Positions 35,260 to 54,757 of a DNA stretch of 64,000 nucleotides are shown here, in pieces. Origin of the DNA: Novosphingobium sp. 9 (GTDB lineage: Bacteria; Pseudomonadota; Alphaproteobacteria; Sphingomonadales; Sphingomonadaceae); the NCBI RefSeq assembly GCF_025340265.1, contig NZ_CP022707.1, positions 1,054,501 through 1,118,500 of the forward strand. The letters are read 5' to 3'. Both the position numbers and the translations under genes were made by a program. Numbering within the stretch: the first letter of the stretch is position 1; each line of letters starts with the position of its first letter. The notes under the pieces were generated by a model. The model made no database searches. It was not told where the DNA came from and saw only the letters and a program-made list of their open reading frames with translations.

Positions 35260-35501
35260 GGAAACTTCCTTTTCCTCTCGGGGTCTTTTGGTGTTCGCCT
35301 GAAGCGCCTTTGTGCTTGCCTGAAGCATCGCTGGGCGCAGCGGCGGGTGTGTCCCCGCAACAGATGACCCTGTGAGGGATTCGGAAAAAGGGGGGCTGCG
35401 CGCACCATTGGATTGCACAAAGTGCGCAAATGGAATGCGGCTTGCGTTGCTGCGCAAACGCCATTTATTTGTTCGAAAATGCCCTTGCGGGTATTTTCGG
35501 C

Positions 35502-35583
35502 GCGGCACCGGCCCTCTCCCCCACCCGGCCTCCCACAGTATATCCTTGATGGGAGGCCGGGTGGGGGAGAGGGCCGGTGCCGC
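35502..35583. repeat. Perfect 34-bp inverted repeat before LysR gene
   Basis: The arms 35502-35535 and 35550-35583 are exact reverse complements around a 14-base loop, giving a very stable GC-rich hairpin 22 bases before the LysR start. The outer bases GCGGCACCGGCCC are shared with the inverted repeat after the gene. The remaining ligM-LysR gap (35260-35501) should hold both promoters; I see no clear -35/-10 pair. Confidence 0.85.
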
Positions 35584-35605
35584 ACAACTCTGGGGAGACG
35601 GACCA

Positions 35606-36496
35606 ATGGACCGCATGAAGGCCATGGAGGCGTTCGTCGGCGCGGTGAAGCAGGGTGGGCTCGGCGCCGCCGCGCAGGAACTGGGCATTTCCCGCACGAT
35701 CGTCACGCGGCATATCCAGGCGCTGGAGGCGGAATTGGGCGTGCGGCTGATGAACCGTACCACGCGCTCGCTCTCCTTGACCGAGGAGGGCCAGCGCTAC
35801 TTCCACTTCGCCGACGAAATCCTGACCCGCGTCGCCGAGATGGACCGCGCGGTCAGTGCCGAGGCGGGCGAGGCGCGCGGCGAGATCGCGGTGCTCGCGC
35901 CCAAGTGGCTGCATGCGCAGGCAACGCGGCTGCTGGTCGAGTTCGCCGCGCTGCACCCGCAGATCCGACCCCGGTTGATCCTGGGCGGCATGGCGCAGAC
36001 CGCCTATGGCTTCGTCGATCAGGGCTGCGAGATCGCGCTGCACACGCGCCAGATCCCCGACAGCCGGATCGTCGCACGCAAGCTGGCGGACATTCCCTAC
36101 CGGCTGGTCGCCTCGCCCGGCTATGTTGCGCAGCACGGTGCGCCCGCCGCGCCGTCAGATTTGTCCGAGCATCGCCTGCTGGTGCAGTTCAACTATCACA
36201 CCTGGCAGTTCTTCCGTGACCGGCGCGAGGAGCGCCTCCAGCCGGTGGGCGCGCTGTCGGCAGACACTTTCTCGGTGCTGCGCGATGCCGCGTTGCAGGA
36301 CATGGGGCTGGCGCTGGTGCCTGAGCCGCTGGTGCGCGGGGATATCGCGGCGGGACAGCTGGTCGAGGTGCTGCCCGACTGGACGCCGCTGCCGCAGACA
36401 CTGTTCGTCGCCATCGCACCGGGCGGTGGCCTGCCGGTACGGGTGCGTCTGCTGATGGATTTCGCGCTCGACTGGTTCGCGCGCAACGGATTGTAG
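35606..36496 (+). CDS. LysR family transcriptional regulator, divergent from ligM
   Basis: A 296-residue LysR regulator of the common type: HTH at residues 3-62 (MKAMEAFVGAVKQGGLGAAAQELGISRTIVTRHIQALE, then LMNRTTRSLSLTEEG) and effector domain from about residue 90. It reads away from ligM across a 346-base gap, so it is the natural candidate regulator of the O-demethylation genes. Start at 35606 follows GGGGAGACGG. It is bracketed by long inverted repeats on both sides. Confidence 0.88.
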   Translation: MDRMKAMEAFVGAVKQGGLGAAAQELGISRTIVTRHIQALEAELGVRLMNRTTRSLSLTEEGQRYFHFADEILTRVAEMDRAVSAEAGEARGEIAVLAPKWLHAQATRLLVEFAALHPQIRPRLILGGMAQTAYGFVDQGCEIALHTRQIPDSRIVARKLADIPYRLVASPGYVAQHGAPAAPSDLSEHRLLVQFNYHTWQFFRDRREERLQPVGALSADTFSVLRDAALQDMGLALVPEPLVRGDIAAGQLVEVLPDWTPLPQTLFVAIAPGGGLPVRVRLLMDFALDWFARNGL

Positions 36497-36541
36497 GGTT
36501 TGGGTCTGTCTGGAAAATGTCGATTACGACATTTTCAGGAA

Positions 36542-36622: not shown

Positions 36623-36629
36623 AAAATTC

Positions 36630-37366: not shown

Positions 37367-40240
37367 GTGACCAAGCGTATTATCGCCGTGCATGTCAGTG
37401 CGCTCGCGCTGGCATGGGCCGGTGCGTCTCATGCCCAGACCACCACATCGCCTGCACCAGCGCCATCAGAAACACCGCCTGCCACTGACGCGACACCGCC
37501 TGCCATCGCCCCTGAAAAGGCGCAGGAAATCATCGTCACCGGCTCGCGCGTCATCACCAACGGCAACAACAGCCCGACGCCCGTCACGGTCGTCTCCACG
37601 CAGCAGGCGCTGGCGGTGCAGCCCGGCACGCTGGCCGATGCGTTGAACACGATGCCGGTGTTCTCCGGCTCGCGCGGGTCGGGCTCGAACGCCTCCTCGA
37701 CCGGTTCGGTCGGTGCGGGCAACGGTGCCGCGAACCAGTTGAACCTGCGCAACCTCGGCAGCCAGGAAACGCTGGTGCTGATGGACGGCAAGCGCGTGCC
37801 GCCCACGCTCATCAGCGGCATCGTCGATGTCGATTCGATCCCGCAGATGATGGTCAGCCGCGTCGATGTCGTCACCGGCGGCGCTTCTGCCGTCTACGGC
37901 TCGGACGCGGTTGCAGGCGTGGTCAACTATGTGCTCGACAAGAACCTGCAGGGTTTGAAAGTGCAGGCCGAGGGCGGGATTTCGCAAAAGGGCGATGCCG
38001 GACACTATCAGGCAGGCCTGGCCTGGGGCACCGATCTGTTCGGTGGCAGAGGCCATTTCGAGGCGAGCTACCAGTACCTCAAGCAGAACGGCATCACCCG
38101 CCGCACCGACCGTTCGTGGCTCGATCAGGCGGGCGTGACCGGGGCAGGCACCACGGGCAACCCTTACGTCAACCAGACGGGCCTGCGCCTCTCGAAGATC
38201 ACCTCGGGCGGCTATATCTCGTCGGGGCCGCTGGCCGGGCAGACCTTCAACGCCGATGGTTCGCTGCGGCCTTATCAGGCAGGGACGGCCACCGGCACCT
38301 CGGCGCTCGAAGTCGGCGGCGACGGCGCCTATTACGACGCCTCGCTGATTGCGCCGCTGGAGTTCAACCAGTTCTTCGGTCGCTTCGACTACGATCTGAC
38401 CGATGACATCCACTTCTACGCGCAGGCGGGCGGCAACTTCAAATCGAACCAGTCCTATGCCGACAACGTGCTGCTCCAGAACGCGACGATCAGCGCCAGC
38501 AATCCGTTCTTGTCGGACGCCATCCGCAGCCAGCTGGCCGGGCAGAGCACGTTCAAGCTGAGCGAGTTGATGACCGCCGGGCCGCGCCTTGGCGTCGATG
38601 CGAAGACCACGCAGATCAACCTTGCGGCGGGGCTGAACGGCAAGCTGGGCAAGTTCGACTGGAACGTCGATTACATTCACGGCTCCTCGGTGCTCAAGAC
38701 CACATCGACCAACAACCTGAACTACCAGCATCTTTACGCTGCGCTCGATGCAGTGGAGGATGGCAACGGCAACATCGTGTGCGCTTCGGCCGCGCAGAAC
38801 CCGGATTGCGTGCCGCTTGATGTGTTCGGCGCGGGCAATGCCAGCCAGGCCGCGCTCGACTATATCCAGCAGGACACGCACTATCGCGCCGCAACCGTGC
38901 TTGACGATGTGACGGCGGCGATCAGCGGATCGCCCTTCGATACCTGGGCGGGGCCGGTAAACGTGGCGATCTCGGGCGAATGGCGGCGTCTGGCGTTCCA
39001 TTCGAGCAGCGATGCGACGCCCAGCGACTATGCCGACTGCACCGGTATCCGCTACAACTGCACGCAAGGCTCGACGCTCTTGTGGCAGAACACGTTCGCC
39101 CCCACCGACACCATCAGCAACACCGTGTGGGAAGGGGCGGTCGAGGCGAACGTGCCGCTGGTCAATGACCTGCCGTTCATCAAGTCCTTCGCGCTCAGCG
39201 GCGCGGCACGCTACACCAGCTACCAGACCAGCGGCCAGTACTGGACGTGGAAGCTGGGGATCGACTGGCACATCACCGATACGCTGCGGGTGCGCGGCAC
39301 ACGTTCGCGCGATATCCGGGCACCTACGCTGAACGACCTGTTCGCGCCGACCTATATCAGCATCGTGCGGCCTACCGACACGCTGACAGGTACGTCGCCG
39401 ACGGTCCCGGCCTATAACCTTTCCAACCCCAACCTGAAGGCGGAGATCGGCAACACCTTCACGATCGGTGCGGTGTGGAAGCCTTCGCCGGTGTTCGATA
39501 TCGCGGTCGATTACTACCATATCAAGGTGACGAACGCGATCACGCAGCTGCAGGGCCAGACCACGCAGATCCAGCAGTTGTGCTATGCCAGCGGCGGCAC
39601 ATCGCCCTATTGCGCCTTGCAGGTCCGTCCCGGCGGGTTCGACCCGAACAACCCGGACGATACCAACCCGGCCAATCAGGTCACGGCCTGGATCAGCCAG
39701 AGCATCAACCTCTCCTCGATCGAGACGATGGGCGTCGATGTCGAGGCGAACCTGCACACCTCGCTGTTCGGCCGCCGTCTGGGCGTGCGGTTCCTGGGCG
39801 CGTACCAGCCGCATATCTACTATCGCCAGCCGGGCGTGCCGACGATCGATCAGGCCGGAGCCGCCTTCGGTCAGCTGGGCGCAGCAGCCGCGCCGACCGT
39901 GCGCCTGACCGGCCTTGTCCACTACGAGCCGAGCGATCAGCTTTCGGTCGACCTGATGGAGCGTTGGCGCAATCCGATGAAGCTGAGCGGTGTGCCCGGC
40001 GAGGTCTGGGAAAACAATCACCTCGATTCGTTCGCCACCACCAACGTGACACTGACGTTCAAGCCGACCGGGGTTCCCACCGGGGAGTTCTACGTCAACG
40101 TCCAGAACCTGTTCAACGCCATCCCGCCGACGGGCGGCTATACCGGCAACGGCACGCGTGCCGGATACCGCGATGGCTATGCGATCGGCGACGATGTGAT
40201 CGGTCGCCAGTTCACGGCAGGCTTCCGGATGAAGTTCTGA
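37367..40240 (+). CDS. TonB-dependent outer-membrane receptor
   Basis: A 957-residue receptor. Signal peptide ends at about residue 23 (AGASHAQ); a Pro/Thr-rich linker leads to the TonB-box-like EIIVTGSRVI and the plug (QQALAVQPGTLADALNTMPVFSGSRG, RNLGSQETLVLMDGKRVPP, IPQMMVSRVDVVTGGASAVYGSDAVAGVVNY), then the barrel, ending AGFRMKF with the terminal Phe. The GTG start has GGGGAGGA upstream. The substrate is unknown; its place beside aromatic catabolic genes suggests uptake of a lignin-derived aromatic or an iron complex. Confidence 0.93.
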   Translation: MTKRIIAVHVSALALAWAGASHAQTTTSPAPAPSETPPATDATPPAIAPEKAQEIIVTGSRVITNGNNSPTPVTVVSTQQALAVQPGTLADALNTMPVFSGSRGSGSNASSTGSVGAGNGAANQLNLRNLGSQETLVLMDGKRVPPTLISGIVDVDSIPQMMVSRVDVVTGGASAVYGSDAVAGVVNYVLDKNLQGLKVQAEGGISQKGDAGHYQAGLAWGTDLFGGRGHFEASYQYLKQNGITRRTDRSWLDQAGVTGAGTTGNPYVNQTGLRLSKITSGGYISSGPLAGQTFNADGSLRPYQAGTATGTSALEVGGDGAYYDASLIAPLEFNQFFGRFDYDLTDDIHFYAQAGGNFKSNQSYADNVLLQNATISASNPFLSDAIRSQLAGQSTFKLSELMTAGPRLGVDAKTTQINLAAGLNGKLGKFDWNVDYIHGSSVLKTTSTNNLNYQHLYAALDAVEDGNGNIVCASAAQNPDCVPLDVFGAGNASQAALDYIQQDTHYRAATVLDDVTAAISGSPFDTWAGPVNVAISGEWRRLAFHSSSDATPSDYADCTGIRYNCTQGSTLLWQNTFAPTDTISNTVWEGAVEANVPLVNDLPFIKSFALSGAARYTSYQTSGQYWTWKLGIDWHITDTLRVRGTRSRDIRAPTLNDLFAPTYISIVRPTDTLTGTSPTVPAYNLSNPNLKAEIGNTFTIGAVWKPSPVFDIAVDYYHIKVTNAITQLQGQTTQIQQLCYASGGTSPYCALQVRPGGFDPNNPDDTNPANQVTAWISQSINLSSIETMGVDVEANLHTSLFGRRLGVRFLGAYQPHIYYRQPGVPTIDQAGAAFGQLGAAAAPTVRLTGLVHYEPSDQLSVDLMERWRNPMKLSGVPGEVWENNHLDSFATTNVTLTFKPTGVPTGEFYVNVQNLFNAIPPTGGYTGNGTRAGYRDGYAIGDDVIGRQFTAGFRMKF

Positions 40241-40452: not shown

Positions 40453-41064
40453 ATGCTTTCCTCCTCTCCTCTCCGGCTGGCGTTGATCGCGGCGGCAGGT
40501 GGTCTTGTAGCGCTCGGCTGTGGCGCGGCGCAGGCGGTCGATGGACCGGACCCGCTGGCTGCCGCGCTGCCGGTGCCGGCCTATGTGCCCTCGCTGGCGC
40601 AGCGCATCGCCGCGATGCCCAAGAACCTGCCGCGCGCCGAGGCTCCGCCGCTCGACGCCGCGATTGCCGCAGCCCGCGCCGCAGTGAGTGCCTGCGCGGC
40701 GAAAGGCGCGCCGGTCAGCGTGCTGGTCGCGGATGTGAACGCGCAGCCGGTCGTGCTGCTTTCGGGCGATGGCGCGGGCGTGCGCTCGATGCTGATCGCG
40801 CAGACCAAGGCGAATATCGTGGCGAAGTACGGCAAGCCCTCGCTCGATGTCGCCAATCTGGCCGAAACCAACCATGACACGGCGGTCAGCGCGGTGGTCG
40901 ATCCCGATATCGGCGTGCTGCGCGGCGGCGGTTTCCCGCTGATGCACGGCAAGCACATGTTCGGCATCGTCGCGGCCTCGGGCGGATCGCTGGGCGGCGA
41001 CAAGACGCTCGACGAGCAGTGCGCGCAAGTCGCCGTCGCCATGCTGGAAGGCCGCAAGGGTTAA
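40453..41064 (+). CDS. Exported GlcG/HbpS family heme-binding-like protein
   Basis: A 203-residue protein with a signal peptide ending near residue 28 (CGAAQAVD) and a GlcG/HbpS (DUF336) domain: LDAAIAAARAAVSACAAKGAPVSVLVADVNAQPVVLLSGDGA, later LRGGGFPLMHGKHMFGIVAASGGSLGGDKTLDEQCAQ. Known relatives bind heme or a cofactor, but many are uncharacterised. It may be a periplasmic partner of the TonB receptor just upstream (212 bases). Confidence 0.8.
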   Translation: MLSSSPLRLALIAAAGGLVALGCGAAQAVDGPDPLAAALPVPAYVPSLAQRIAAMPKNLPRAEAPPLDAAIAAARAAVSACAAKGAPVSVLVADVNAQPVVLLSGDGAGVRSMLIAQTKANIVAKYGKPSLDVANLAETNHDTAVSAVVDPDIGVLRGGGFPLMHGKHMFGIVAASGGSLGGDKTLDEQCAQVAVAMLEGRKG

Positions 41065-41070
41065 GGGAGA

Positions 41071-41100
41071 AAGAGAGCCTGCGGGCGGGCAGGCTCTCTT
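41071..41100. terminator. Bidirectional hairpin between convergent genes
   Basis: AAGAGAGCCTGC (41071-41082) pairs perfectly with GCAGGCTCTCTT (41089-41100), lying between the stops of the HbpS-like gene and the LysR gene at 41110. Confidence 0.75.
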
Positions 41101-41109
41101 GCGGGCTTT

Positions 41110-42369
41110 CTACACCGCCTGCGGCAGGCGCACCGGTTCGGCGCTGACATGGCGGCGGATGGTGTCGAGGAACTCGCTCTGCAGTCGGGTCGGCATCCAG
41201 TCGGCGCGGCGGGTGATGCCGATCGACGGGGCAGGTTCGATCCGCGAGAAATGGAGTGCGCGCATCGTGTCTCGCTCGGCGGCGACCTCGTAGGAGGTCA
41301 TCAGCGTCAGCCGGTCGCTGTCGCGCAGCAGGTGGCGGATGATCGGCACGCCGCAAGTGGCGAGCTGGGTGCGCGGGCCGGGCGTTCCGGCGAAGATCCG
41401 CTCGAAACAGGCGCGGCGGCTGGAGCCTTCGGTGCCGATGATCCAGTCATGCGCCATCAGTTCGGACACCGTGACCTTGCCCGCGAAGGTCAGCGGATGG
41501 CTGCGGCGCCCGACGATGACGTAGGGCGTCTGGGCCAGCGGTTCGCAGATGAAGTCTGGATCGGTCTGTTCGGGCAGCAGGCCGACCGCGAAATCGACCG
41601 CGCCGGTGCGCAGCGCCCGCGTCATTTCGGTCGCGTTTTCGCTGATGACCCGAACGTCCGCCTGCGGATGGGTGGCGAGAAAATCGCCGAGCACCGAGGC
41701 CAGCAGCACGCTGCCGCCGAACGGCATGGCGCCGATCACCACGGGCGTTTCGCTGCCTTCGCGCGCGGCGTCCAGTTCCATCACGCCCAGTTCGATCTCG
41801 TGCATGGCGAGCCGCGCCAGCTGGCCGAAGCGGATGCCTGCCGGGCCGACGATCATGCCCGAGGCGGTGCGATAGAACAGCGAGACCTGCAGGTTGCCCT
41901 GAAGATCGCGGGCCGAACGCTGGAGCGAGGCCGGGGAAATCGCGATGACCTCGCCCGCCTGCTCGAACGAGCCGTGCTCGACCACCGCGACCAGCATGCG
42001 CAGCTGCGAGCGCGTCAGGCGGTTCATGATCGCGCGGGCATTGTCCGCGTTGGTGGCGGCGCCGATCTCGACGATGGCGCGCTGGGCCTGGTTGAAGAAG
42101 CGCTTCACGCGGGCGTGGAAGATCTCGCCCCATTCGTTGAGGTAGCTGCCGCTCGCGCGCCGGTCGACCAGCGGCACGTCGAGCTGGGCTTCCATCTTGG
42201 CGAGGGCTTGCGTGACGGCAGGTTGCGACAGGTTGCAGGCCTCTGCGGCCTGCCGCACGCTGCGCAAGTCACCGATCGCCTCGAACAGGCGCAATTGCCG
42301 GAAGCTGAGCGACCCGGCGCGTTCGAGGCTGTTGCCGGAACTGGTGCCAGAGTGGTTGGCTGTGATCAT
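41110..42369 (-). CDS. LysR family regulator with tandem N-terminal HTH domains
   Basis: A 419-residue protein, about 120 longer than a normal LysR. Two successive LysR-type winged helices are visible: residues 22-80 (LSFRQLRLFEAIGDLRSVRQAAEACNLSQPAVTQALAKME) and about 117-180 (LTRSQLRMLVAVVEHGSFEQAGEVIAISPASLQRSARDLQ, LFYRTASGMIVGPAG), followed by one effector-binding domain (from about 210). It is divergent from the eight-gene aromatic operon with 444 bases between, so it is the likely regulator. Two DNA-binding domains per chain could read a longer operator. Confidence 0.88.
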   Translation of the reverse strand: MITANHSGTSSGNSLERAGSLSFRQLRLFEAIGDLRSVRQAAEACNLSQPAVTQALAKMEAQLDVPLVDRRASGSYLNEWGEIFHARVKRFFNQAQRAIVEIGAATNADNARAIMNRLTRSQLRMLVAVVEHGSFEQAGEVIAISPASLQRSARDLQGNLQVSLFYRTASGMIVGPAGIRFGQLARLAMHEIELGVMELDAAREGSETPVVIGAMPFGGSVLLASVLGDFLATHPQADVRVISENATEMTRALRTGAVDFAVGLLPEQTDPDFICEPLAQTPYVIVGRRSHPLTFAGKVTVSELMAHDWIIGTEGSSRRACFERIFAGTPGPRTQLATCGVPIIRHLLRDSDRLTLMTSYEVAAERDTMRALHFSRIEPAPSIGITRRADWMPTRLQSEFLDTIRRHVSAEPVRLPQAV

Positions 42370-42813
42370 TATTTATGTCCTCTCCTGCGGTGCAGTCTTC
42401 GCCTTTTTTATCTCCCGTTCAACCTGAAATGCATCGCATCGTTCCCGCATCTGCGAAGGTAATGCGCGTCGACAGGTCATGAGATCGGCATGAAATATCA
42501 CGCTATTGCGCAGAAAACATGGGATTATGACGGGTATCCGGAGATTGCTCGCAGCTGCGCAGGCTCGTTTTCAAGCACAGGCGCAATGCGGTAAACCTAT
42601 TGCCGCTTGCGCGATTTCAATCGCTGCAAAATCCATATTTCAATCACATGACAGGGCGAGCCGCAGCGCACAGGTTATAAATTGCTTGTCTCCTGCGCGT
42701 GGTTCCGGCCCCGCCGCGTTGACGAAGCGGGCGGGGGTGGCGCTTAGAGAGGCGCACGCTGGCAGCCCGGATCTCGGGCGGGCTGGTGCAAGAAGGTTTC
42801 AAGGAGAGTGAGA
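42370..42813. promoter_or_regulatory. Divergent control region with repeated ATTTCAATC motifs
   Basis: The 444-base gap between the tandem-HTH LysR gene and the operon. GCGATTTCAATCGC (42611-42624) is a palindrome with 6-bp arms, and its core ATTTCAATC recurs 23 bases on at 42637-42645, about two helical turns, as expected for LysR sites. TTATAAAT at 42675 may be a -10 element. AAGGAG at 42801-42806 sets the first gene's start at GTG 42814. No gene is seen in the gap. Confidence 0.5.
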
Positions 42814-43803
42814 GTGAGCCAGAAAGTTCCCCTCAAGCTGGCGATTGCCGAGCATCCGCACACCTCGGCGATCCGCAGCGGCGAGATCGAGATCGAGGGT
42901 GTTGAGCCCGAGTTCGTCACCGTCAAGCCGCAGATCGGCGCGTTCCGCCGCATGGTGCGCGACCTCGAATTCGACGTCTGCGAACTGGCGCCGACCACCT
43001 ATATCATCGCCCGCGCCTATGGCCGCCCGTTCACGGCGCTGCCGATCTTCGTGGTGCGTCGTTTCCACCATGGCGGCATGCTGGTGCGCCCCGACGCGGG
43101 CATCCATCATCCGAAGGATCTGGAAGGCAAGACCGTGGGCGTGCGCGCCTATTCGGTGACGACTGGCGTGTGGATCCGTCAGGTCTTCATCGACGAATAC
43201 GGCATGGACAATTCCAAGGTGAACTGGGTCGTCGATGACGAGGAGCACGTCACCGAGCTGAAGCTGCCTTCCAACGTGCGCCACACCGAAGGCGGCGTCT
43301 CGCTGGCCGACATGATGGCCAGCGGCGCGATTCAGGCGGGCGTCGAGGCGGCGGCCGGCATCGGTCGTACCGGCAGCCCGACCGGCGGCTGGCAGGAAGT
43401 CGACACCAGCATGTATCCCGATCTCATCCCCGATGCGGAAAGTGCGGAGAAGGAATACTTCGCGCGCACCGGCGTCTATCCGATGCACGGCACGATCGTC
43501 GTCAAGGACGACATCCTGGCGCAGCATCCGTGGATCGCGCGTTCGCTCAACGATGCCTTCACCCGCGCCAAGGACGAGTGGCTGGCCAAGCTGAACTCGG
43601 GCGAGGCGACCGGCAAGCAGGCGGACAAGTACCGCGCGCTGCAGGGCATCGTCGGTCCCGACCCGCTGCCCTACGGCATTGAGGAGAACCGCGCGACCAT
43701 CGAGGCGCTGGAGCAGACCGCGTTCAAGCAGGGCCTCACCCCGCGCCGCATGAGCATGGAGGAACTCTTCGTCGATCCGCTCAAGGCGCCGGTGCGCGTC
43801 TGA
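42814..43803 (+). CDS. 4,5-dihydroxyphthalate decarboxylase-like protein
   Basis: A 329-residue cytoplasmic protein of the 4,5-dihydroxyphthalate decarboxylase group (periplasmic-binding-protein fold, no signal peptide). Visible: LKLAIAEHPHTSAIRSGEIEIEGVEPEF, FDVCELAPTTYIIARAYGRPF, VVRRFHHGGMLVRPDAGIHHPKDLEGKTVGVRAYSVTTGVW. In phthalate degraders such proteins decarboxylate 4,5-dihydroxyphthalate to protocatechuate. The substrate here may differ, since no phthalate dioxygenase lies nearby. First gene of the operon, start at GTG 42814 (AAGGAG 7 bases upstream; GTG 42808 is too close). A related protein ends the operon. Confidence 0.77.
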   Translation: MSQKVPLKLAIAEHPHTSAIRSGEIEIEGVEPEFVTVKPQIGAFRRMVRDLEFDVCELAPTTYIIARAYGRPFTALPIFVVRRFHHGGMLVRPDAGIHHPKDLEGKTVGVRAYSVTTGVWIRQVFIDEYGMDNSKVNWVVDDEEHVTELKLPSNVRHTEGGVSLADMMASGAIQAGVEAAAGIGRTGSPTGGWQEVDTSMYPDLIPDAESAEKEYFARTGVYPMHGTIVVKDDILAQHPWIARSLNDAFTRAKDEWLAKLNSGEATGKQADKYRALQGIVGPDPLPYGIEENRATIEALEQTAFKQGLTPRRMSMEELFVDPLKAPVRV

Positions 43804-43888
43804 TCTTTTCGCTGCGGGAGGCGGCATGGTGTCGCCTCCCGTCGGTTTTTCGGAACGTTCACGCTATCGGCTCGATCTCTTCCTGCCC

Positions 43889-43962
43889 CCGTTCGTGTCG
43901 AGCGAAGTCGAGACACGGCATTCGCCGCGCCAGCGTGTCTCGACTTCGCTCGACACGAACGG
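43889..43962. repeat. Perfect 29-bp inverted repeat within the operon
   Basis: The arms 43889-43917 and 43934-43962 are exact reverse complements (built on GTGTCGAGCGAAGTCGAGACAC-like sequence) with a 16-base loop. This is a well-known type of dispersed repeat in sphingomonads. It lies between the first and second genes of the aromatic operon and may lower or uncouple their expression. Confidence 0.82.
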
Positions 43963-44035
43963 AGGGGGTGGCGGGGCACGGTAGTAAAACAGCAGCTTGC
44001 TGGGTGAACCTCTCCGCACAATTACGGAGTCTATC

Positions 44036-45061
44036 ATGATCATCGACTGTCACGGCCATTTCACGACCGTGCCCAAGCACTTCCGCGAATGGCGCGCCGC
44101 GCAGGTCGCGGCGGCGAACGACGAGGCGAACGCGCCGAAGATCGCCGATGCCTACGTCACCGACGACCAGATCCGCGAGGGCATCGAGGATGGCCAGCTT
44201 CGCCTCCAGCAGGAGCGCGGCGGAGACCTCACGCTGTTCTCGCCGATCGCGGGGCTGATGAGCCACCACCTCGGCAACGAGCGCACCAGCCTGGAATGGG
44301 CGACGATCTCGAACGATCTCGTCTATCGCGTCACCGAGATGTACCCGGACAACTTCGTGCCGGTGGGCATGCTGCCGCAGAGCCCCGGCGCAGCACCGAA
44401 GAACTCGGTCCCCGAACTGAAGCGCATCGTCAACGAACTCGGCTTCGTGGGCGTGAACATCAACCCGGACCCGACTGGCGGCTACTGGACGGGCAAGCCC
44501 TTCACCGACAAGGAATGGTATCCGCTGTTCGAGGCGCTGTGCGAGCTGGACGTGCCGGGCATGGTCCACGTCGCCGCCTCGTGCAATCCCAACTTCCACG
44601 GCACCGGCGCGCATTACCTGAATGCCGATACCTCGGTGTTCATGCAGATCCTGCAGTCGAACCTGTTCAAGGACTTCCCGACGCTGCGCCTCGTGATCCC
44701 GCATGGCGGCGGCGCGGTGCCGTACCACTGGGGCCGCTATCGCGGCATGTCGCTGGAGATGATGGACCGTCCGCTGGAAGGTCTGCTCGAAAACGTGTTC
44801 TTCGACACCTGCGTCTATCACCATCCCGGCGTCGAGCTGCTGACCAAGGTGGTGCCCACCACCAATGTCCTGTTCGGTTCGGAAATGATCGGTGCCGTGC
44901 GTGGACGCGATCCAAACACCGGCCACTATTTCGATGACACCAAGCGCTATGTTGATGCCTGCGAAGCGCTGACCGACGCCGATCGCCAACTGATCTACGA
45001 AGACAACGCACGCCGCGTCTATCCGCGTCTCGACGCGCGCCTGAAGGCCAAGGGCCTGTAA
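44036..45061 (+). CDS. LigJ-like 4-oxalomesaconate hydratase / amidohydrolase-2 family
   Basis: A 341-residue metal-dependent TIM-barrel protein of the amidohydrolase_2 family. Opens with the metal motif IIDCHGHFTTVP; other ligands probably in MVHVAASC (middle) and VIPHGGGAVPYHWGR, and the end has VLFGSEMIGAVRG. These fit the LigJ group, which hydrates 4-oxalomesaconate to 4-carboxy-4-hydroxy-2-oxoadipate in the protocatechuate/gallate meta-cleavage route. ACMSD-type decarboxylases share this fold, so decarboxylation is the alternative. GGAG upstream supports the start at 44036. Confidence 0.82.
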   Translation: MIIDCHGHFTTVPKHFREWRAAQVAAANDEANAPKIADAYVTDDQIREGIEDGQLRLQQERGGDLTLFSPIAGLMSHHLGNERTSLEWATISNDLVYRVTEMYPDNFVPVGMLPQSPGAAPKNSVPELKRIVNELGFVGVNINPDPTGGYWTGKPFTDKEWYPLFEALCELDVPGMVHVAASCNPNFHGTGAHYLNADTSVFMQILQSNLFKDFPTLRLVIPHGGGAVPYHWGRYRGMSLEMMDRPLEGLLENVFFDTCVYHHPGVELLTKVVPTTNVLFGSEMIGAVRGRDPNTGHYFDDTKRYVDACEALTDADRQLIYEDNARRVYPRLDARLKAKGL

Positions 45062-45255
45062 GGAACCGGGGCGGCGGGGAGCGCGATTCAGGGCTATTCC
45101 TTGAGGGCATAAGTTATGTCTTCCGGCCCAGTTCCAACTCCCCGCCACCTGCGTGCCCCGGCACACTGCAAGACCTGACCGAACTTCGAGTCAAACCCCC
45201 GAGAGGATGACCGGCATCGCGCATGGACGCGGCCGGCGATTGGAGCCCGACACCG

Positions 45256-46110
45256 ATGACAGCGACGTATGTCGATATTCACCCGCATGTGATCTCGGAC
45301 GACGAGACCGCCTATCCGCCCGCGCCCCTGTTCGGCAAGCGTTCGGACTGGTCGCAGGAGCGCCCGAGCACGGTCGAAACGCTGATCGCCTCGATGGACG
45401 AGGCGGGCGTCGCCAAGGCCGCGGTGGTCCATTCCTCGACCACCTATGGTTTCGACAACAGCTACGTCGTCGATGCGTGCAATCGCTATGCCGATCGCCT
45501 GATCTCGGTGGGTTCGGTCGACGTGCTGGCGCCCGATGCGGTCGAGACGATCCGCATGTGGACCGATCGCGGCCTCAAGGGCCTGCGCATCTTCACCGGT
45601 GGCAGCACCAAGGAATTCGACGCCAGCGAGCTGGACGACGCGCGCGCCTATCCGGCGTGGGAGCTGCTGGGTGAACTGGGTATCCCGATGTGCATCCAGA
45701 CCGGCCCGAACGGCCTCGATGCCGTGGTCTCGCTGGCCAGGCGCTTCCCCAACGTGAACATCATCCTCGACCACCTCGGCCGCCCCGATGTGACCGACGG
45801 CGCGCCCTACGCCAAGGCGCAGAGCCTGTTCGACCTCGCGCCGATCACCTCGATCTACTTCAAGCTGACCCCGCGCATCATGGGCGACAGCACGAAGGGC
45901 GAGGCGACCCCGGAAACGCTGTTCCCCAAGTTCGTCGAGGTGTTCGGCGCCGATCGTCTGGCCTGGGGTTCCAACTACCCGACCTCGCCCGGCACGCTGG
46001 GCGAGATCAAGGCAACCGCCGAGGCGCGTCTGGCCTCGCTCGACGCGGAAGCGCGTAGCTGGATCTTCGCCAGGACCGCACAGAAGCTATACCCCGCGCT
46101 GGCCGACTGA
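45256..46110 (+). CDS. Amidohydrolase family protein (COG3618-like)
   Basis: A 284-residue TIM-barrel hydrolase: N-terminal HxH as YVDIHPHVI, a central NVNIILDHLGRPDV and the C-terminal RLAWGSNYPTS. This order is that of the LigI/COG3618 lactonases and hydrolases, which include 2-pyrone-4,6-dicarboxylate lactonase. The C-terminal Asp usual in LigI is Asn here (WGSNYP), as in some other COG3618 groups. Identity to LigI itself looks low. Start at 45256 or at ATG 45223; neither ribosome site is strong. It probably hydrolyses or hydrates a ring-cleavage product. Confidence 0.75.
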   Translation: MTATYVDIHPHVISDDETAYPPAPLFGKRSDWSQERPSTVETLIASMDEAGVAKAAVVHSSTTYGFDNSYVVDACNRYADRLISVGSVDVLAPDAVETIRMWTDRGLKGLRIFTGGSTKEFDASELDDARAYPAWELLGELGIPMCIQTGPNGLDAVVSLARRFPNVNIILDHLGRPDVTDGAPYAKAQSLFDLAPITSIYFKLTPRIMGDSTKGEATPETLFPKFVEVFGADRLAWGSNYPTSPGTLGEIKATAEARLASLDAEARSWIFARTAQKLYPALAD

Positions 46111-46155
46111 TCCTAAAAGGTCGCGGCAACGAGAATAAAGAAATTGGAGAGTGAC

Positions 46156-47472
46156 ATGGCAAGGGCAATAGAGAGCAGGGACGGGGTGGAAGTGCCCTCG
46201 TTGGCGGGTGAAGGCCTGCTCGACGATACGCCGCGCGTCAACGCGACGACCTGGGCGATCCTGATCCTGCTCGCGCTGGGGGTGATGATCGCCTACGTCG
46301 ATCGTACCAGCATTTCCTCGGCGCTGGCCGAAAAGCCCTTCATCGATCACTTCGGCCTGACCGATGTCGATCGCGGCTGGGTGAACTCGGCCTTCTTCTG
46401 GTCCTATGGCCTGATCCAGATCCCGATGGGCTGGCTGGTCGATCGTTATGGCGTGAAGCTGCCCTACACCATCTGCTTCGCGCTGTGGTGCGTGGCGACG
46501 GCCGTGACCGGGGCGATCTCGACGCTGTTCGCGCTGATCGTCATGCGCATCATTGTCGGCGCGGCGGAAGCGGCTGTGATCCCCGCCAGCTATCGCTGGA
46601 TCCGCGACAACTTCTCCGAAGGCTCGGCAGGTACGGCGGTCGGCATCTTCACGGCGGGCAACAAGCTTGGCCCGGCGATCGGCGCCCCGGTCGCGGCGTG
46701 GCTGATCACCGCGCATGACTGGCGCACGATGTTCTTCGCCACCGGCATCGTCGGCATGCTGTGGCTGGTGCCGTGGATCTTCGGCGTGCGCAACGATCTG
46801 CCGCCGCCCGAAATGCGCGCCGAAGTGCGCCGCAAGGCCTCGGCCGTGACGCTGGGCGCGATCCTTGCCAGCCCGCTGGTGTGGGGAACGCTGATCGTCA
46901 GCTTCTGCTATGGCTATTTCACGTTCTACTGCATGACCTGGATGCCTTCGTATCTGGTCGAGCAGCATGGCCTCTCGCTCAAGCAGTCGGGCCTCTATAC
47001 CTTCTTCAGCTTCTCTGGGATTGCCATCGTCGCGGTTGTCGCGGGCTGGGCGGCGGACCGGATCATCGCCCATGGCGGCAACGCGGTGTTCGTGCGCAAG
47101 GCCTTCACCGTTGCCGGGTTCGTCGGCGCGAGCACGATCCTGCTGGGCGCCTATTCGACCAACCTCGATACCGCGCTGTTCTGGAACGTGTTCTCGCTCT
47201 CGTGTCTGGGCCTTGCCACCGCGAACAACCTGGCGCTGTGCCGCCTGACGCTGATCCCCAAGCCCGCCGTCGGCCTCGTTACCGGCGTGCAGCAGGTGGC
47301 GACCAGCATCTCGGGCGGCGCCGCCGCGCTGATCTCGGGCTGGCTGCTTTCGGCGAGCGGCGGCTACGACCTGCCGATCCTCGTGATCGTGGCCTTCTGC
47401 GCGCTGGGCGCACTCACCACCATCTTCGTGCTGCAACCGCGCTGGGCACCCAAGGTCCACGCGGCAGCATAA
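46156..47472 (+). CDS. MFS transporter, anion:cation symporter type
   Basis: A 438-residue major facilitator with twelve predicted helices. Opens with a soluble tail, then TWAILILLALGVMIAYVDRTSISSAL; motif A appears as GWLVDRYGVKLPY. It resembles the ACS/phthalate permease group that moves aromatic acids with protons. The start at 46156 has GGAGA 7 bases upstream. Placed in the middle of the catabolic operon, it is the likely inner-membrane importer of the pathway substrate. Confidence 0.88.
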   Translation: MARAIESRDGVEVPSLAGEGLLDDTPRVNATTWAILILLALGVMIAYVDRTSISSALAEKPFIDHFGLTDVDRGWVNSAFFWSYGLIQIPMGWLVDRYGVKLPYTICFALWCVATAVTGAISTLFALIVMRIIVGAAEAAVIPASYRWIRDNFSEGSAGTAVGIFTAGNKLGPAIGAPVAAWLITAHDWRTMFFATGIVGMLWLVPWIFGVRNDLPPPEMRAEVRRKASAVTLGAILASPLVWGTLIVSFCYGYFTFYCMTWMPSYLVEQHGLSLKQSGLYTFFSFSGIAIVAVVAGWAADRIIAHGGNAVFVRKAFTVAGFVGASTILLGAYSTNLDTALFWNVFSLSCLGLATANNLALCRLTLIPKPAVGLVTGVQQVATSISGGAAALISGWLLSASGGYDLPILVIVAFCALGALTTIFVLQPRWAPKVHAAA

Positions 47473-47511
47473 GCATCAACGGATTCGATCCTCGACAAGG
47501 GATACAAGACA

Positions 47512-48524
47512 ATGGCTAAAATCGTATTCGGAATGGCTGTCCCCCACAGCGGCATGCTGGGACAGGCACCGGAAGACTGGCTCACCAACGGCGAGCGCGA
47601 CCGCAACAACCCGGCCTTGTGGTACAAGGGCAAGACCTGGACCTATCCCGAACTGGAGGCCGAGCGCGGCGCCGCCTTCGAATATGGCCTGACCATGGAA
47701 GAGCGCACCGAACGTGCCGCCAAGTGCCGTGCCGCGCTGGACGAGATGGCCGAAGCCTACAAGCGCGCCAAGGTCGATGTGTGCATCGTGCTGGGCAAGG
47801 ACCAGAAGGAAATCTGGCCCGACCAGTCCCCGCGATCACCATCTACACCGGTGAGGAAGTCCATAATGGCCCGCCGCAGCGCCCGGTCTATGCGCCCGAT
47901 CATCATGTCGTCCACAAGGCCCATCCCGAGTTCGCGACCTACCTGATCGGCAAGTTTCAGGAGCAGAATTTCGATCTCAACGACCTGCAAGCCTGGCCGC
48001 AGAACACCTGGATGGAGCGTCAGCGCGGCTATGCGCCGGACTATCCGGTGGTCCCGCATGCCTACAGCTTCGTCTATCACCAGATCATGGGTGACGATGT
48101 GCCGCCGCATGTGCCGGTGCTGTTCAACCTGTTCTATCCGCCCACGCAGCCCTCGATGGCGCGCTGCATCGAGTTCGGCCGCGTGCTGCGCGATGCGATC
48201 GAGGCCTGGCCCGAGGACGTGCGCGTGGCGGTGATCGCCTCGGGCGGCCTGTCGCACTTCGTCAACGACGAGGAGTTCGACCGCAACGTGATGGGGATGC
48301 TGGCGAGCTACGATTACGACGGCCTCGCCGCCATTCCCGACACCTACTACCAGTCGGGCACGTCGGAGGTGAAGATCTACTCCATCGTGATGATGGCGCT
48401 CCAGCACACCGGCGCGCAGATGAAACTGGTCGACTACGTGCCGTGCTGGCGCACCGCTGCCGGCACCGGCGAAGGCATGGGCTTCATGTACTGGAGCCCC
48501 GAAGAACAGACCGAAGCTGCCTGA
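47512..48524 (+). CDS. Class III extradiol ring-cleavage dioxygenase, LigB/DesZ-like (apparent frameshift)
   Basis: Non-heme Fe(II) dioxygenase of the LigB superfamily, about 337 residues. First part (47512-47830): MAKIVFGMAVPHSGMLG with the first metal His, then ERDRNNPALWYKGKTWTYPEL and VDVCIVLGKDQKEIWPDQ. The frame breaks at the CCCC run 47828-47831; one extra C gives SPAITIYTGEEVHNGPPQRPVYAPDHHVV and continues with VPHAYSFVYHQIM and VIASGGLSHFVNDEEFD (conserved His) to TGA 48522-48524. Length and N-terminus resemble 3-O-methylgallate dioxygenase (DesZ) more than LigB. As printed, the gene is broken, but the clean downstream frame argues for a sequencing error. Confidence 0.8.
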
Positions 48525-48538
48525 AAGGCCTGACTGAC

Positions 48539-49396
48539 ATGACCGACAATCGCCTCAACGGCATCATCCGCGCCTTCGAAGCCGGCAAGCCCGCCTTCAC
48601 CTGCTTCGCCAAGGTCGACAAGCTGACCGCGCAGGAAATGACCGACGCGCCTTACGATGGCGTGGTGTTCGAGATGGAGCACAACCCCTACGACGTGGCC
48701 GGACTGGGCGACGCGCTGCAGTACATGCTCAACCGCAAGACAATCGCCTCGACCGGCTCGGTCGCCCCGGCGGTGACGCCGATTGCGCGCATTCCGGCGA
48801 ACGGCGCCGAGATGAACCAGTTCCAGGCCAAGCAGGTGCTGGATCGCGGCGTCTACGGCGTCATCACCCCGCACGTCTCGACCGTCGAGCAGGCCTACAA
48901 CATGGTCGCCTCGTGCCGCTATGCCAGGCCGACCGGCGCGGCGCTCTACGAGCCCAAGGGCATTCGCGGCGACGGCCCGGCCACGGCAGCGCGCTACTGG
49001 GGCCTGACCCAGCACGAATACTACGCCAAGGCCGACGTCTGGCCGCTGGCTCCGCATGGCGAACTGCTGGTGGGCATGATGTGCGAGAGCCCCGAGGCGA
49101 TCGAGAACCTCGACGATATCCTCGCCAACGTGCCCGGCATCGGCTTCGTGCTGATCGGCGAGGGCGATCTTTCGCAGGCGCTCGGCTATCCGCGCCAGTA
49201 CGAGCATCCCGAAGTGCTCGATGCGATGCGCCGTATCGTCGAGACCTGCAAGAAGCACAACGTGGTGGTCGGCAACCCGCACACCAATGCCAAGAACGTC
49301 GAGCGCCTGATCGGCGAAGGCTATCGCTTCCTGATGTCCGCCCCTTCGCGCAGCTATGGCGTGGTCGGGCAGGGCCGCGAACTGGCGGGGTACTGA
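48539..49396 (+). CDS. HpcH/HpaI family aldolase
   Basis: A 285-residue class II pyruvate aldolase-like TIM barrel: YDGVVFEMEHNPYDVAGLGDALQYM, ARIPANGAEMNQFQAKQVLDRGVYGVITPHVSTVEQA, LLVGMMCESPEAIENLDDILANVPGIGFVLIGEGDLSQALG. Relatives cleave 4-hydroxy-2-oxo acids to pyruvate plus an aldehyde or oxo-acid. Here it would split the hydrated ring-cleavage product, in place of the unrelated LigK aldolase. Starts 14 bases after the dioxygenase. Confidence 0.87.
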   Translation: MTDNRLNGIIRAFEAGKPAFTCFAKVDKLTAQEMTDAPYDGVVFEMEHNPYDVAGLGDALQYMLNRKTIASTGSVAPAVTPIARIPANGAEMNQFQAKQVLDRGVYGVITPHVSTVEQAYNMVASCRYARPTGAALYEPKGIRGDGPATAARYWGLTQHEYYAKADVWPLAPHGELLVGMMCESPEAIENLDDILANVPGIGFVLIGEGDLSQALGYPRQYEHPEVLDAMRRIVETCKKHNVVVGNPHTNAKNVERLIGEGYRFLMSAPSRSYGVVGQGRELAGY

Positions 49397-49399
49397 GCC

Positions 49400-50989
49400 A
49401 TGGCCGAAGCGAACCCCAACCCCGAAGCAGGCGAGATGACCGGCGCGCAGACGCTGGTCAACACACTGGCCGACAACGGCGTCGACGTGTGCTTCGCCAA
49501 TCCCGGCACGTCCGAGATGCACTTTCTGGCCGCGCTCGACAATCCGCGCATGAAAAGCGTGCTGTGCCTTTACGAGGGCGTGTGCACCGGCGCGGCGGAC
49601 GGCTGGTATCGCATGAAGGAGACGCCCGCCTCCACGCTGCTGCATCTGGGGCCGGGGCTCGCGAACGGCCTGTCGAACATCCACAATGCCAAGCGCGCCT
49701 CTTCCGGCATGGTCAATATCGTGGGTGAGCATTCGGCCAGCCACCTGAAGTACGATCCGCCACTGACTTCGGACATTGAGGGCCTTGCGCGGCCGCTCAG
49801 CCACTGGGTGCGCCGCGCCGAAAGCTCGACGACCATCGCCTGGGATACCGCCAGCGCGGTGGCGAAGGCCAGCGAGCACCCCGGCCAGATCGCCACGCTG
49901 ATCCTGCCGGGCGATACCGCGTGGAAGGCCGCCGGTCCCTCGAAGGTGCCGACGGGGCTTGGCCGTCCGCGCACCGCCCCCGATCAGGCGCGGGTCGACA
50001 ACGTGGCGCGCGTGCTGCGCTCTGGCGAGCCGGTGCTCATCATTCTGGGCAACCGCGCCACGCGTGGGCAGGCATTGGCCCTGGCGGGCAAGGTGGCAGG
50101 CGCCACCGGCGCGCGGCTCGGCTCGCAGTTCTTCACCGCGCGTATCGAGCGTGGTGCAGGCCGCACCCCGCTGGAGCGCATCCCTTACGCGGTGCCGCAG
50201 GCGCGCGCGTTCCTGGCGGGCTTCAAGCACATCGTCACGGTGGAGACGAAGGAGCCGGTGGCGTTCTTCAGCTATCCCGACCAGCCCAGTCTGATGAAGG
50301 GGCCGGAAACCATCGTCCATTCCTTCGTCGAGCCCGACGAGGATTCGGCGCTGGGCTTCGAGATGCTGATCGAGGCGCTGGGCGGTTGTCGCGACGCTGC
50401 CCCGCTGGTGCAGGAGCGTATCGAGGCGCCAATCCCTTCGGGCGCGCTGGGGGCCGAGACGATCGCCCATGCGCTCTCCGCCGCGCTGCCGGAAGGCGCG
50501 ATCCTCGTCGACGAATCGCTCACCACCGGGCGCCAGACGATGGGCCTGACGATGGGCGCGCGTCCGCATGACCTGATCAACAACATGGGCGGCTCGATCG
50601 GTTACGGCACCCCCGTCGCCACCGGGGCCTCGCTTGCCTGTCCTGACCGGCGGACCTTCTGCATGGTGGGTGACGGCTCGGCGATGTACACGATCCAGTC
50701 GCTGTGGACGCAGGCGCGCGAAGGGTTGCCGATCACCACGATCATCTTCGCCAACAACCAGTACGCGATCCTCAAGGCCGAATACACCAACATGGGTGCG
50801 GGCGCGACGCCGGGGCCGCAGGCGATGGCGATGATCGACATCGACCGTCCGACGATCGACTGGGTGGCCATGGCAAAGTCCATGGGCGTGCCCGGCGTGC
50901 AGGTGGATAACGCCGGAGACTTCTACAAGGAGATGGCGCGCTCGGCCGAGATGGACGGCCCCTGCCTGATCGAAGTGAAGCTCTACTGA
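49400..50989 (+). CDS. ThDP-dependent enzyme, acetolactate synthase/benzoylformate decarboxylase-like
   Basis: A 529-residue thiamine-diphosphate enzyme. N-terminal pyrimidine-binding domain with the activating Glu in LCLYEGVCTGAADGW; C-terminal ThDP motif starting VGDGSAMYTIQSLWTQAREGLPITTIIFANNQYAIL (GDG...NN). Often auto-named acetolactate synthase large subunit, but in this operon a 2-oxo-acid decarboxylase or carboligase is likelier. It starts 3 bases after the aldolase, so it may act on the oxo-acid released by it. Confidence 0.85.
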   Translation: MAEANPNPEAGEMTGAQTLVNTLADNGVDVCFANPGTSEMHFLAALDNPRMKSVLCLYEGVCTGAADGWYRMKETPASTLLHLGPGLANGLSNIHNAKRASSGMVNIVGEHSASHLKYDPPLTSDIEGLARPLSHWVRRAESSTTIAWDTASAVAKASEHPGQIATLILPGDTAWKAAGPSKVPTGLGRPRTAPDQARVDNVARVLRSGEPVLIILGNRATRGQALALAGKVAGATGARLGSQFFTARIERGAGRTPLERIPYAVPQARAFLAGFKHIVTVETKEPVAFFSYPDQPSLMKGPETIVHSFVEPDEDSALGFEMLIEALGGCRDAAPLVQERIEAPIPSGALGAETIAHALSAALPEGAILVDESLTTGRQTMGLTMGARPHDLINNMGGSIGYGTPVATGASLACPDRRTFCMVGDGSAMYTIQSLWTQAREGLPITTIIFANNQYAILKAEYTNMGAGATPGPQAMAMIDIDRPTIDWVAMAKSMGVPGVQVDNAGDFYKEMARSAEMDGPCLIEVKLY

Positions 50990-51009
50990 GAAAAGAGGGG
51001 AGAGAGTCC

Positions 51010-51906
51010 ATGACCGATACCAATACAGACGTGCTCACCCTGCGCGCCAACGTGCAGGACTATCCGCAGACCAAGGCACTGAAGGACGGGCGCGTCTCGT
51101 CCGAGATCGTCAAGCTCGACTTCTGCGGCCCGGAAAAGGCGCATAACGGCTTCAAGCCGATGCTGCGCGAGAATGCCTTCGACTGCGGCGAACTGGCAAT
51201 CGTCACCTATCTGCAGGCCAAGGCCTACGGCAAGCCGTGGGTGATCCTGCCCGCGCCGGTCTCGGGCCGGTTCCAGCACCATTGCGCCGGGTACAACCGC
51301 GAACTCGGCCACGTCGCGCCCAAGGACATCGAGGGCAAGAAGGTGGGCGTGCGGACCTATGCGCAGACCACCGGTCTGTGGGTGCGCGGCGTGCTGCAGC
51401 ACGAATACGGCGTCGATCTGAACAAGGTGACATGGATGACCGGCGGTGACGGGCACCTGCTCGAATATACCGATCCCGACAACTGCGTGCGTCTGCCCAA
51501 GGGCTCTGACATCGGCCAGATGATGCTCGACGGCGAACTGACCGCGACGCTTCAGGGCGTCGATCTGCCCAAGGACCCGCGCGTCGAGCGGCTGATCCCC
51601 GATCCCTTCAACGCCGCCAAGGAGTGGTTCGCGCGCGAAGGCGTGGTGCCGATCAACCACATGTTCGTGGTGCACGAGGATTTGTCGAAGAACCGCCCCG
51701 ACGTGGTGCGCGAACTCTACCGCATGATCGGCGAGACGCGCGACCTCACTGAAGGCGGGCTGCCCGATCCGTTCCCGCCTATGGGGCTTGAGGCCAACCG
51801 CAAGGGTCTGCAACTCGCCATCGACTGGGCCTACGAGCAGAAGATCATCCCTGCGCGCATGAGCGTGGACTCGCTGTTCGACGAGACCACCGGCGCGCTG
51901 GGGTAA
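51010..51906 (+). CDS. 4,5-dihydroxyphthalate decarboxylase-like protein (second)
   Basis: A 298-residue soluble protein with no signal peptide and the same fold as the first gene of the operon: FKPMLRENAFDCGELAIVTYLQAKAYGKPW aligns with FDVCELAPTTYIIARAYGRPF, and KDIEGKKVGVRTYAQTTGLWVRGVLQHEYGVD with KDLEGKTVGVRAYSVTTGVWIRQVFIDEYGMD. So the operon begins and ends with two diverged copies, perhaps different steps or two subunits. Last gene before a strong terminator. Confidence 0.75.
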   Translation: MTDTNTDVLTLRANVQDYPQTKALKDGRVSSEIVKLDFCGPEKAHNGFKPMLRENAFDCGELAIVTYLQAKAYGKPWVILPAPVSGRFQHHCAGYNRELGHVAPKDIEGKKVGVRTYAQTTGLWVRGVLQHEYGVDLNKVTWMTGGDGHLLEYTDPDNCVRLPKGSDIGQMMLDGELTATLQGVDLPKDPRVERLIPDPFNAAKEWFAREGVVPINHMFVVHEDLSKNRPDVVRELYRMIGETRDLTEGGLPDPFPPMGLEANRKGLQLAIDWAYEQKIIPARMSVDSLFDETTGALG

Positions 51907-52048
51907 AGGAATTCGCTGACCGGCGAATAACCGGCATCGATCCGCTCTCTTGCCCGGCGCACCTGTGGGGCGACGGTGGGAGCGAGCGGGTCGGTGCCGG
52001 ATGGGGCATGCTCCGTCCGGAACATGCCTTTGGTCCATCCTGACACTG

Positions 52049-52080
52049 ACGGGCCGGAGTTTCGCTCCGGCCCGTTTTTT
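52049..52080 (+). terminator. Strong intrinsic terminator after the aromatic operon
   Basis: ACGGGCCGGAG (52049-52059) and CTCCGGCCCGT (52065-52075) form a perfect 11-bp GC stem with a five-base loop, followed by six T (52075-52080). It lies 142 bases after the last gene. Confidence 0.92.
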
Positions 52081-52110
52081 CGTGTCGATCCGGCATGCGA
52101 TGCGATGACA

Positions 52111-52142
52111 CGCCCCGCAGGGGTTGGATGGCCTGCGGGGCG
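52111..52142. terminator. Hairpin downstream of low-complexity gene
   Basis: CGCCCCGCAGG (52111-52121) and CCTGCGGGGCG (52132-52142) form a perfect 11-bp stem, read on the minus strand about 47 bases after the stop at 52189. No T-run. Confidence 0.55.
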
Positions 52143-52188
52143 CGTCGGCCTCCGGGGCCCGCGCTTGCGGGTCTGCCGGGGCGGGGGG

Positions 52189-53301: not shown

Positions 53302-53410
53302 CGGTGTGCTCCTTCTTGCGTCCCTACCTCCATTTCGGGAGGCTCGGGGAAGGAACGGGTGCCGGTTTCGCTTTCATCCCTCGGCAACGAGATTTTTCGG
53401 AAATATTCGC

Positions 53411-54723: not shown

Positions 54724-54757
54724 TTGCTTGTCCCTTTCGAAAATTCGTAGCACTCAC

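Follow-up and report, generated by a model that had tools for sequence, protein, structure and literature searches.

The window analysed here is a stretch of 64,000 nucleotides from Novosphingobium sp. 9 (contig NZ_CP022707.1, positions 1,054,501 to 1,118,500), and the system in question is a set of eight plus-strand genes at 42,808–51,906 (open reading frame list of the window) that resembles a meta-cleavage operon for an aromatic acid. In order, the genes encode a protein related to 4,5-dihydroxyphthalate decarboxylase (Pht5; D1), a LigJ-type hydratase (J), an amidohydrolase-family hydrolase (I), a major facilitator superfamily (MFS) carrier (T), a LigB-superfamily extradiol dioxygenase (Ox), an HpcH/HpaI-type aldolase (Ald), a thiamine diphosphate (ThDP)-dependent enzyme and a second Pht5-like protein (D2). 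An earlier, sequence-only reading had described these genes in this order, and both genes and order stand, although the dioxygenase gene is not a single open frame. The divergent LysR-type regulator that it reported does carry two helix-turn-helix stretches (HTH_1). Its boundary of 42,814–51,906 is too narrow, since it omits an O-demethylation cassette (30,836–35,352) and the TonB/HbpS-like genes (37,367–41,064). All features are listed in Table 1.

The arrangement is widely conserved. Contigs scanned with 19 aligned Ox sequences yielded 94 confirmed places, the best 80 of which were kept. All eight genes occur on one strand and in the same order in 44 of these 80 loci, with protein identities of 53–93%, and given this number of relatives the arrangement, whose co-occurrence elsewhere the sequence-only reading had proposed as a check, is beyond chance. 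Among the 71 long loci (at least 6 kb before and at least 5 kb after Ox), Ox is present in 71, T and Ald in 66 each, I in 64, D1 and D2 in 62 each, J in 60, the ThDP gene in 52 and the LysR gene in 23. Genera with Ox loci include Novosphingobium, Sphingobium, Sphingomonas, Caulobacter, Nitrospirillum, Paraburkholderia, Caballeronia, Cupriavidus, Massilia, Duganella and Janthinobacterium. Close relatives of Ox (≥67% identity) are uncommon in evenly drawn genomes: there are at least 5 in 396 genomes of the order and 4 in 397 of the family, the window's own genome included, and these counts are lower bounds because mostly five or fewer first-look candidates were scored per genome. In five genomes with a bare Ox or a T-Ox pair at the fetched locus, the aldolase is encoded elsewhere in all five (78–91%). 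No description of the gene set appears among the literature matches listed, in a coverage that mostly leaves out subscription papers. Plasmid-borne copies are present in Acidovorax sp. DW039 (plasmid typed as mobilizable) and Diaphorobacter sp. HDW4B; the former has an annotated tripartite tricarboxylate transport binding protein in the place of the MFS carrier. Recurrent flanking genes in the 80 loci are those for a PD40 propeller (36), a PF10282 lactonase (35) and an HpaA-like AraC regulator (35, none of them in loci L009–L036).

Signature residues set two of the proteins apart from their classical counterparts. J is 56% identical to the genome's own LigJ and shares with it, by alignment, motifs that are presumably the metal site. 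Hydrolase I, taken here to be of the COG3618 type, has weak matches to LigI structures. The Asp of the LigI motif WGTDWP, which we assume to be catalytic, is replaced by Asn in the window and in 49/49 aligned relatives, and on this residue I was rejected as a LigI. Ox has the class III extradiol dioxygenase fold (DesB/LigB), with the LigB domain in its second stretch; its identification as a second ordinary LigB was likewise rejected on signature residues (see below). In Ald, the Glu and Asp that presumably bind the metal in HpcH/HpaI proteins are aligned, and at least 97% of 63 relatives retain them.

Table 1. Features of the operon and its surroundings, with positions in the window.
Feature	Position	Strand	Basis and remarks
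FolD (methylene-tetrahydrofolate dehydrogenase/cyclohydrolase), one-carbon (C1) branch	30836..31795	-	PF00763/PF02882; no stops
PurU-type formyl-tetrahydrofolate deformylase	31807..32658	-	PF00551 + ACT; 73% to N. rosa copy near operon
Methylene-tetrahydrofolate reductase-like (MetF/MTHFR)	32763..33581	-	64% to N. rosa PF02219 protein; no stops
Tetrahydrofolate-dependent aromatic O-demethylase, LigM/DesA (GCV_T) type	33892..35352	-	LigM 5tl4, E 4.1e-124; 75% to N. rosa copy
LysR-type regulator beside O-demethylation cassette	35372..36496	+	PF00126/PF03466
TonB-dependent receptor	37367..40240	+	PF00593/PF07715; homologs in 13/80 loci
HbpS-like protein	40453..41064	+	PF03928; 65% homolog in 1/80 loci (L021)
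Divergent LysR-type regulator, two HTH_1 domains	41110..42369	-	Pfam/NCBIfam
D1, 4,5-dihydroxyphthalate-decarboxylase-like (Pht5-like)	42808..43803	+	PDB 9jp7, Pfam/NCBIfam comparison
Terminator-like hairpin between D1 and J	43814..43842	+	13 pairs, T-rich tail
J, LigJ-type 4-oxalomesaconate (2-keto-4-carboxy-3-hexenedioate, KCH) hydratase	44036..45061	+	2gwg, E 8.7e-145; start chosen by the authors
I, Amidohydro_2 hydrolase without the LigI Asp	45256..46110	+	Pfam/NCBIfam/PDB; start chosen by the authors
T, MFS carrier	46144..47472	+	PF07690; TIGR00893 below its own cut-off
Ox, LigB-superfamily extradiol dioxygenase	47512..48524	+	Frame change near 47,827 in present assembly
Ald, HpcH/HpaI-type class II aldolase	48539..49396	+	PF03328; start chosen by the authors
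ThDP-dependent enzyme	49400..50989	+	NF005760; nearest solved structures are benzoylformate decarboxylases
D2, second Pht5-like protein	51010..51906	+	PDB 9jp7; 33% identity to D1
Terminator-like hairpin after D2	52048..52076	+	13 pairs, T-rich tail

The surroundings of the operon bear on its substrate. The cassette for tetrahydrofolate (H4folate)-dependent O-demethylation lies on the strand opposite to the operon, some 6 kb ahead of the LysR gene, and its GCV_T protein matches LigM (5tl4) over its full length (417.9 bits, residues 37–486). Comparable genes are linked to the operon in 5 of 9 genomes read over 25–64 kb, the window's included (4 of the 8 others). In Novosphingobium rosa a single contig carries seven operon genes (a count that excludes I, whose place straddles the border of two stretches), a second T-Ox pair, a VanA-type Rieske protein, three GCV_T demethylases, two MTHFR and two PurU genes; the remaining cases are Nitrospirillum and the genomes G412 and G532. 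On its second contig the present genome has a LigM-like protein (E 6e-97) and a protein 79% identical to the VanA-type one of N. rosa, and a VanA homolog of at least 50% identity occurs in 5 of 14 operon genomes. The region at 842,000–876,000 of that second contig holds genes for this VanA-type Rieske protein and the LigM-like protein, along with TonB receptors, a lactonase-family protein, a PD40 propeller and, by eye, a metallo-beta-lactamase-like protein. The linkage to O-demethylation, together with the VanA, PD40 and lactonase neighbours, argues for a methoxylated substrate, at least in alphaproteobacteria, and the substrate of the operon is probably O-methylated and gallate-like. An O-methylated trihydroxybenzoate, which had been named as plausible from the operon, gains from the presence of the cassette in the same window. 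The TonB-dependent receptor is a probable uptake component, while the membership of the HbpS-like protein in the system is uncertain.

A further question is how far the operon depends on the classical lig genes. The present genome carries a ligI-ligU-ligK and ligJABC cluster separately (names assigned by the authors' own reading and by alignments). With a threshold of E ≤ 1e-20, its classical Lig proteins were searched against 22 operon genomes, namely its own and 21 chosen from the 80 loci. LigB was found in 19 of the 22 (best match 39% upward) and LigI in 12. Sphingomonas kyeonggiensis has no match to LigK, LigU, LigB or LigI at this threshold; Massilia IC2-477 and Janthinobacterium 344 have none to LigK, LigB or LigI, and PrpF proteins of just 41–42%. 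When the whole RraA family is considered, S. kyeonggiensis (no PF03737) alone among the 44 full-operon genomes is without a match, against 43 with one; Janthinobacterium 344 has one short frame (172 aa) and Massilia one of 251 aa. The PrpF family is likewise present in the latter two and absent from S. kyeonggiensis. The genomes of two other loci (L041, L042) have LigK- and LigB-type matches and no LigU match at E ≤ 1e-20.

A sister gene set bears on the role of Ald. A Polymorphobacter plasmid carries a 41% Ox homolog, and similar loci occur in genomes G239 and G171, in each case with RraA-family genes and with neighbours that are LigJ-like (33–35%) or annotated as amidohydrolases. Across the Sphingomonadales relatives of this kind (L091, L132–L134) the likeness to the operon is a 37–42% Ox homolog next to a gene that is LigJ-like or annotated as an amidohydrolase; the difference is that RraA-family genes stand where the operon has HpaI (by annotation in L091, by BLAST identity of 28–29% to LigK in L132 and L134, and by eye in L133). 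That this set has an RraA gene where the operon has HpaI supports Ald as the terminal aldolase. The variant route put forward in the sequence-only reading, with an HpaI-type aldolase in the stead of LigK, is supported by conserved synteny and by the 1 of the 44 full-operon genomes that is without an RraA-family match. As PMC5065237 describes the 4-hydroxy-4-methyl-2-oxoglutarate/4-carboxy-4-hydroxy-2-oxoadipate (HMG/CHA) aldolase as structurally distinct from HpaI, such a replacement would be non-orthologous.

The preferred reading, to which we give a probability of about one half, is that the eight genes encode a self-contained lower meta-cleavage pathway, whose starting compound is a gallate-type acid that most likely arrives methoxylated (for example as 3-O-methylgallate from syringate). 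O-demethylation would come first, and Ox would then open the ring. I, with D1 and/or D2, may yield KCH from the ring-cleavage product (a methyl ester, pyrone or enol form), a step that would replace LigI/DesC/DesD and LigU. J would hydrate KCH to CHA, which Ald, and not LigK, would cleave to pyruvate and oxaloacetate. The ThDP enzyme would be an accessory, perhaps a side-chain oxo-acid decarboxylase acting with an aldehyde dehydrogenase (ALDH) encoded near the operon in some relatives, while the tandem-HTH LysR protein would exert control, and the TonB receptor and the MFS carrier would serve uptake. We infer every one of these reactions, above all those of I, D1 and D2, from sequence.

Among known systems, the lig/gal lower pathway shares with the operon a LigB-superfamily dioxygenase and a LigJ-type hydratase. 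It differs in that the operon has an HpaI-type aldolase instead of the RraA-type LigK/GalC, has no PrpF-type LigU/GalD among its eight genes, and has a hydrolase I without the LigI Asp (GalC is taken here to belong to the RraA family, and GalD to PrpF). The homoprotocatechuate pathway (HpaD, HpaI) likewise combines a LigB-superfamily dioxygenase with an HpaI aldolase, but the hydratase of the operon is of the LigJ type, and no relatives of HpaE, HpaF, HpaG or HpaH are among the matches listed for the eight proteins. According to PMC6888825 and PMC12314914, the syringate and 3-O-methylgallate routes converge on 4-oxalomesaconate, the last steps being those of LigU/GalD, LigJ/GalB and LigK/GalC. 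The 3-O-methylgallate branch of strains SYK-6 and DSM 12444 (DesZ/LigAB, DesC, DesD) resembles the present system in having one or more H4folate-dependent O-demethylases that feed an extradiol dioxygenase, whereas no gene like its desC or desD was recognised in the operon, which has I, D1, D2, the HpaI aldolase and the ThDP enzyme instead. The syringate pathway of Pseudomonas NGC7 (MgaAB-MgaC-MgaD-GalDBC; PMC12314914) is similar in leading O-demethylated syringate into the tricarboxylic acid cycle by a route of its own, but uses other gene families after ring cleavage. In the passages seen of PMC8268980, 4-oxalomesaconate hydratase is tabulated across Paraburkholderia, and no such cluster is described there.

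Several observations weigh against an autonomous pathway for methoxylated gallates. LigK is found in 19 of the 22 operon genomes, always at 59% identity or more, and LigU (PrpF) in 19 as well (15 at ≥53%, 4 at 41–42%). Because only S. kyeonggiensis is without both RraA and PrpF, the strict natural-knockout case rests on one draft genome, and judged by gene content the self-sufficiency of the operon is strictly shown by that genome only. The link to O-demethylation is seen in Alphaproteobacteria only, and O-demethylation genes were not seen in four genomes (G383, G224, G598, G079) within the stretches read. A GCV_T demethylase occurs in just 2 of the 80 loci with flanks of up to 10 kb, and two betaproteobacterial plasmid regions (29 kb) show no O-demethylation gene among the annotated genes of an incomplete table. 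Ox keeps the equivalent of LigB His12, while the column of His61 is Gln in 78/78 sequences and in distant relatives, and the position aligned to Glu242 is ambiguous (the numbering of this presumed iron site is assumed). In the present assembly Ox is also frameshifted, and the hairpin between D1 and J may in part uncouple D1 from the genes downstream. Finally, a 3-O-methylgallate route leaves the two decarboxylase-like proteins without a role.

These two proteins are central to the first alternative, in which the aromatic acid bears one more carboxylate, in ortho position, as a hydroxylated or methoxylated phthalate would. D1 and D2 would remove this group ahead of ring opening by Ox, leaving a gallate- or protocatechuate-type acid, the rest being as in the preferred reading. 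Both match the Pht5 structure 9jp7 (E 8.6e-43 for D1 and 2e-21 for D2), and the predicted fold of D1, the one of the two that was modelled, is nearest to Pht5; family and, for D1, fold are thus shared with the phthalate 4,5-route. However, the identity of D1 is only about 29%, and no phthalate dioxygenase was recognised in a partial look at the neighbourhoods, made by eye among the starts of open reading frames. Two distinct paralogs in one operon would, moreover, need two substrates, and the fold is not peculiar to Pht5, being used by further lyases (MqnD, DszB, Thi5). This alternative is considered unlikely. D1 and D2 might conceivably be binding proteins for transport, but by eye no signal peptide is seen in their N-termini, and the nearest fold to that of D1 is the one of Pht5.

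A second alternative, close to the sequence-only reading, is that the carbon skeleton differs from that of the gallate route: J would hydrate a KCH analogue, Ald would release pyruvate and another oxo-acid, the ThDP enzyme would decarboxylate this acid to an aldehyde, and ALDH would oxidise it. An ALDH homolog (≥41%) does occur in 24/80 loci, directly before D1 in Nitrospirillum and G079, and the presence of the ThDP gene in most of the long loci is in keeping with such a scheme. The enzyme matches the NCBIfam model NF005760, "acetolactate synthase large subunit" (706.7 bits, cut-off 363), and among solved structures it is nearest to benzoylformate decarboxylase. It keeps a Glu and a His aligned with Glu47 and His70 of the latter, while the region of His281 is not kept (residue numbers and roles are assumed here). 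Against this scheme, J appears too close to LigJ for a very different substrate, and the ThDP gene is missing, with the other seven present, from 10 of the 71 long loci. A genome search covering nine of these (all except L073) and the short locus L045 found no ThDP homolog of at least 50% in 10/10 genomes; five had no match at E ≤ 1e-100, and five had homologs of just 47–49%. In eight other genomes without the gene at the fetched locus, a 75–77% homolog is encoded elsewhere. The ThDP enzyme as an obligatory step, the necessary oxo-acid decarboxylase of the sequence-only reading, was therefore rejected; by these comparisons it is common, yet the operon can exist without it. The alternative as a whole is improbable.

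The condition of Ox in this strain deserves separate mention. Residues 1 to about 105 lie in the frame of 47,512 and the remainder in the frame 47,619–48,524, whereas full-length homologs exist and the gene is intact in relatives. Of seven LigB-type genes in the assembly, three are split into two frames (163,801–164,591 and 1,539,974–1,540,734 of the first contig, and the window's 47,512–48,524; neighbouring matches were paired by the authors), which makes assembly indels the likelier cause, and the frame change is likely an error of this kind. That the operon is instead decaying or dead here, Ox being truly frameshifted and the genome falling back on its classical lig cluster, would fit the frame change and the presence of that cluster, but is very improbable, since past the change the sequence stays open, with up to 88% identity to intact homologs, each of the other seven genes is an uninterrupted frame of normal length, and the splits look like assembly error.

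Returning to the preferred reading, a wider and more tentative claim is that the operon represents a second lower meta-cleavage pathway of independent evolutionary origin, meeting the classical one at the LigJ reaction only. HpaI would stand for LigK, and I, together with two enzymes that share the Pht5/periplasmic-binding-protein fold, would stand for LigI, LigU and DesC/D, so that methoxylated gallates could be used without canonical ligI, ligU, ligK and ligB. If true, several successive steps would have undergone non-orthologous replacement, and Pht5-fold proteins would have acquired a new function after ring cleavage, as a tautomerase or as a decarboxylase of an open-chain acid. Annotation that seeks LigK, LigU or LigI would then overlook a route to the breakdown of methoxylated aromatics that is present in Sphingomonadales, Caulobacter, Nitrospirillum and Burkholderiales, plasmid copies included. 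The operon would also be a candidate genetic basis for the use of S-type lignin beyond the des/lig and NGC7 systems, and would offer candidate enzymes for biological funnelling.

Of the signals for transcription, the strong terminator claimed for the end of the operon corresponds to the 13-pair terminator-like hairpin past D2, but it has a like counterpart inside the operon. The whole scan gave 9 terminator-like sites against 6.9 (standard deviation 2.8) in shuffled sequence, so that only the two long 13-pair stems stand out. A scan for sigma-70 promoters found none (1.7 expected), and Rfam gave no match at gathering scores over 36,000–53,500. Downstream, the window encodes a low-complexity Ala/Ser/Gly-rich protein with no Pfam match (52,189–53,301), followed by a subtilase-type protein (53,411–54,753) that may be split over two frames.

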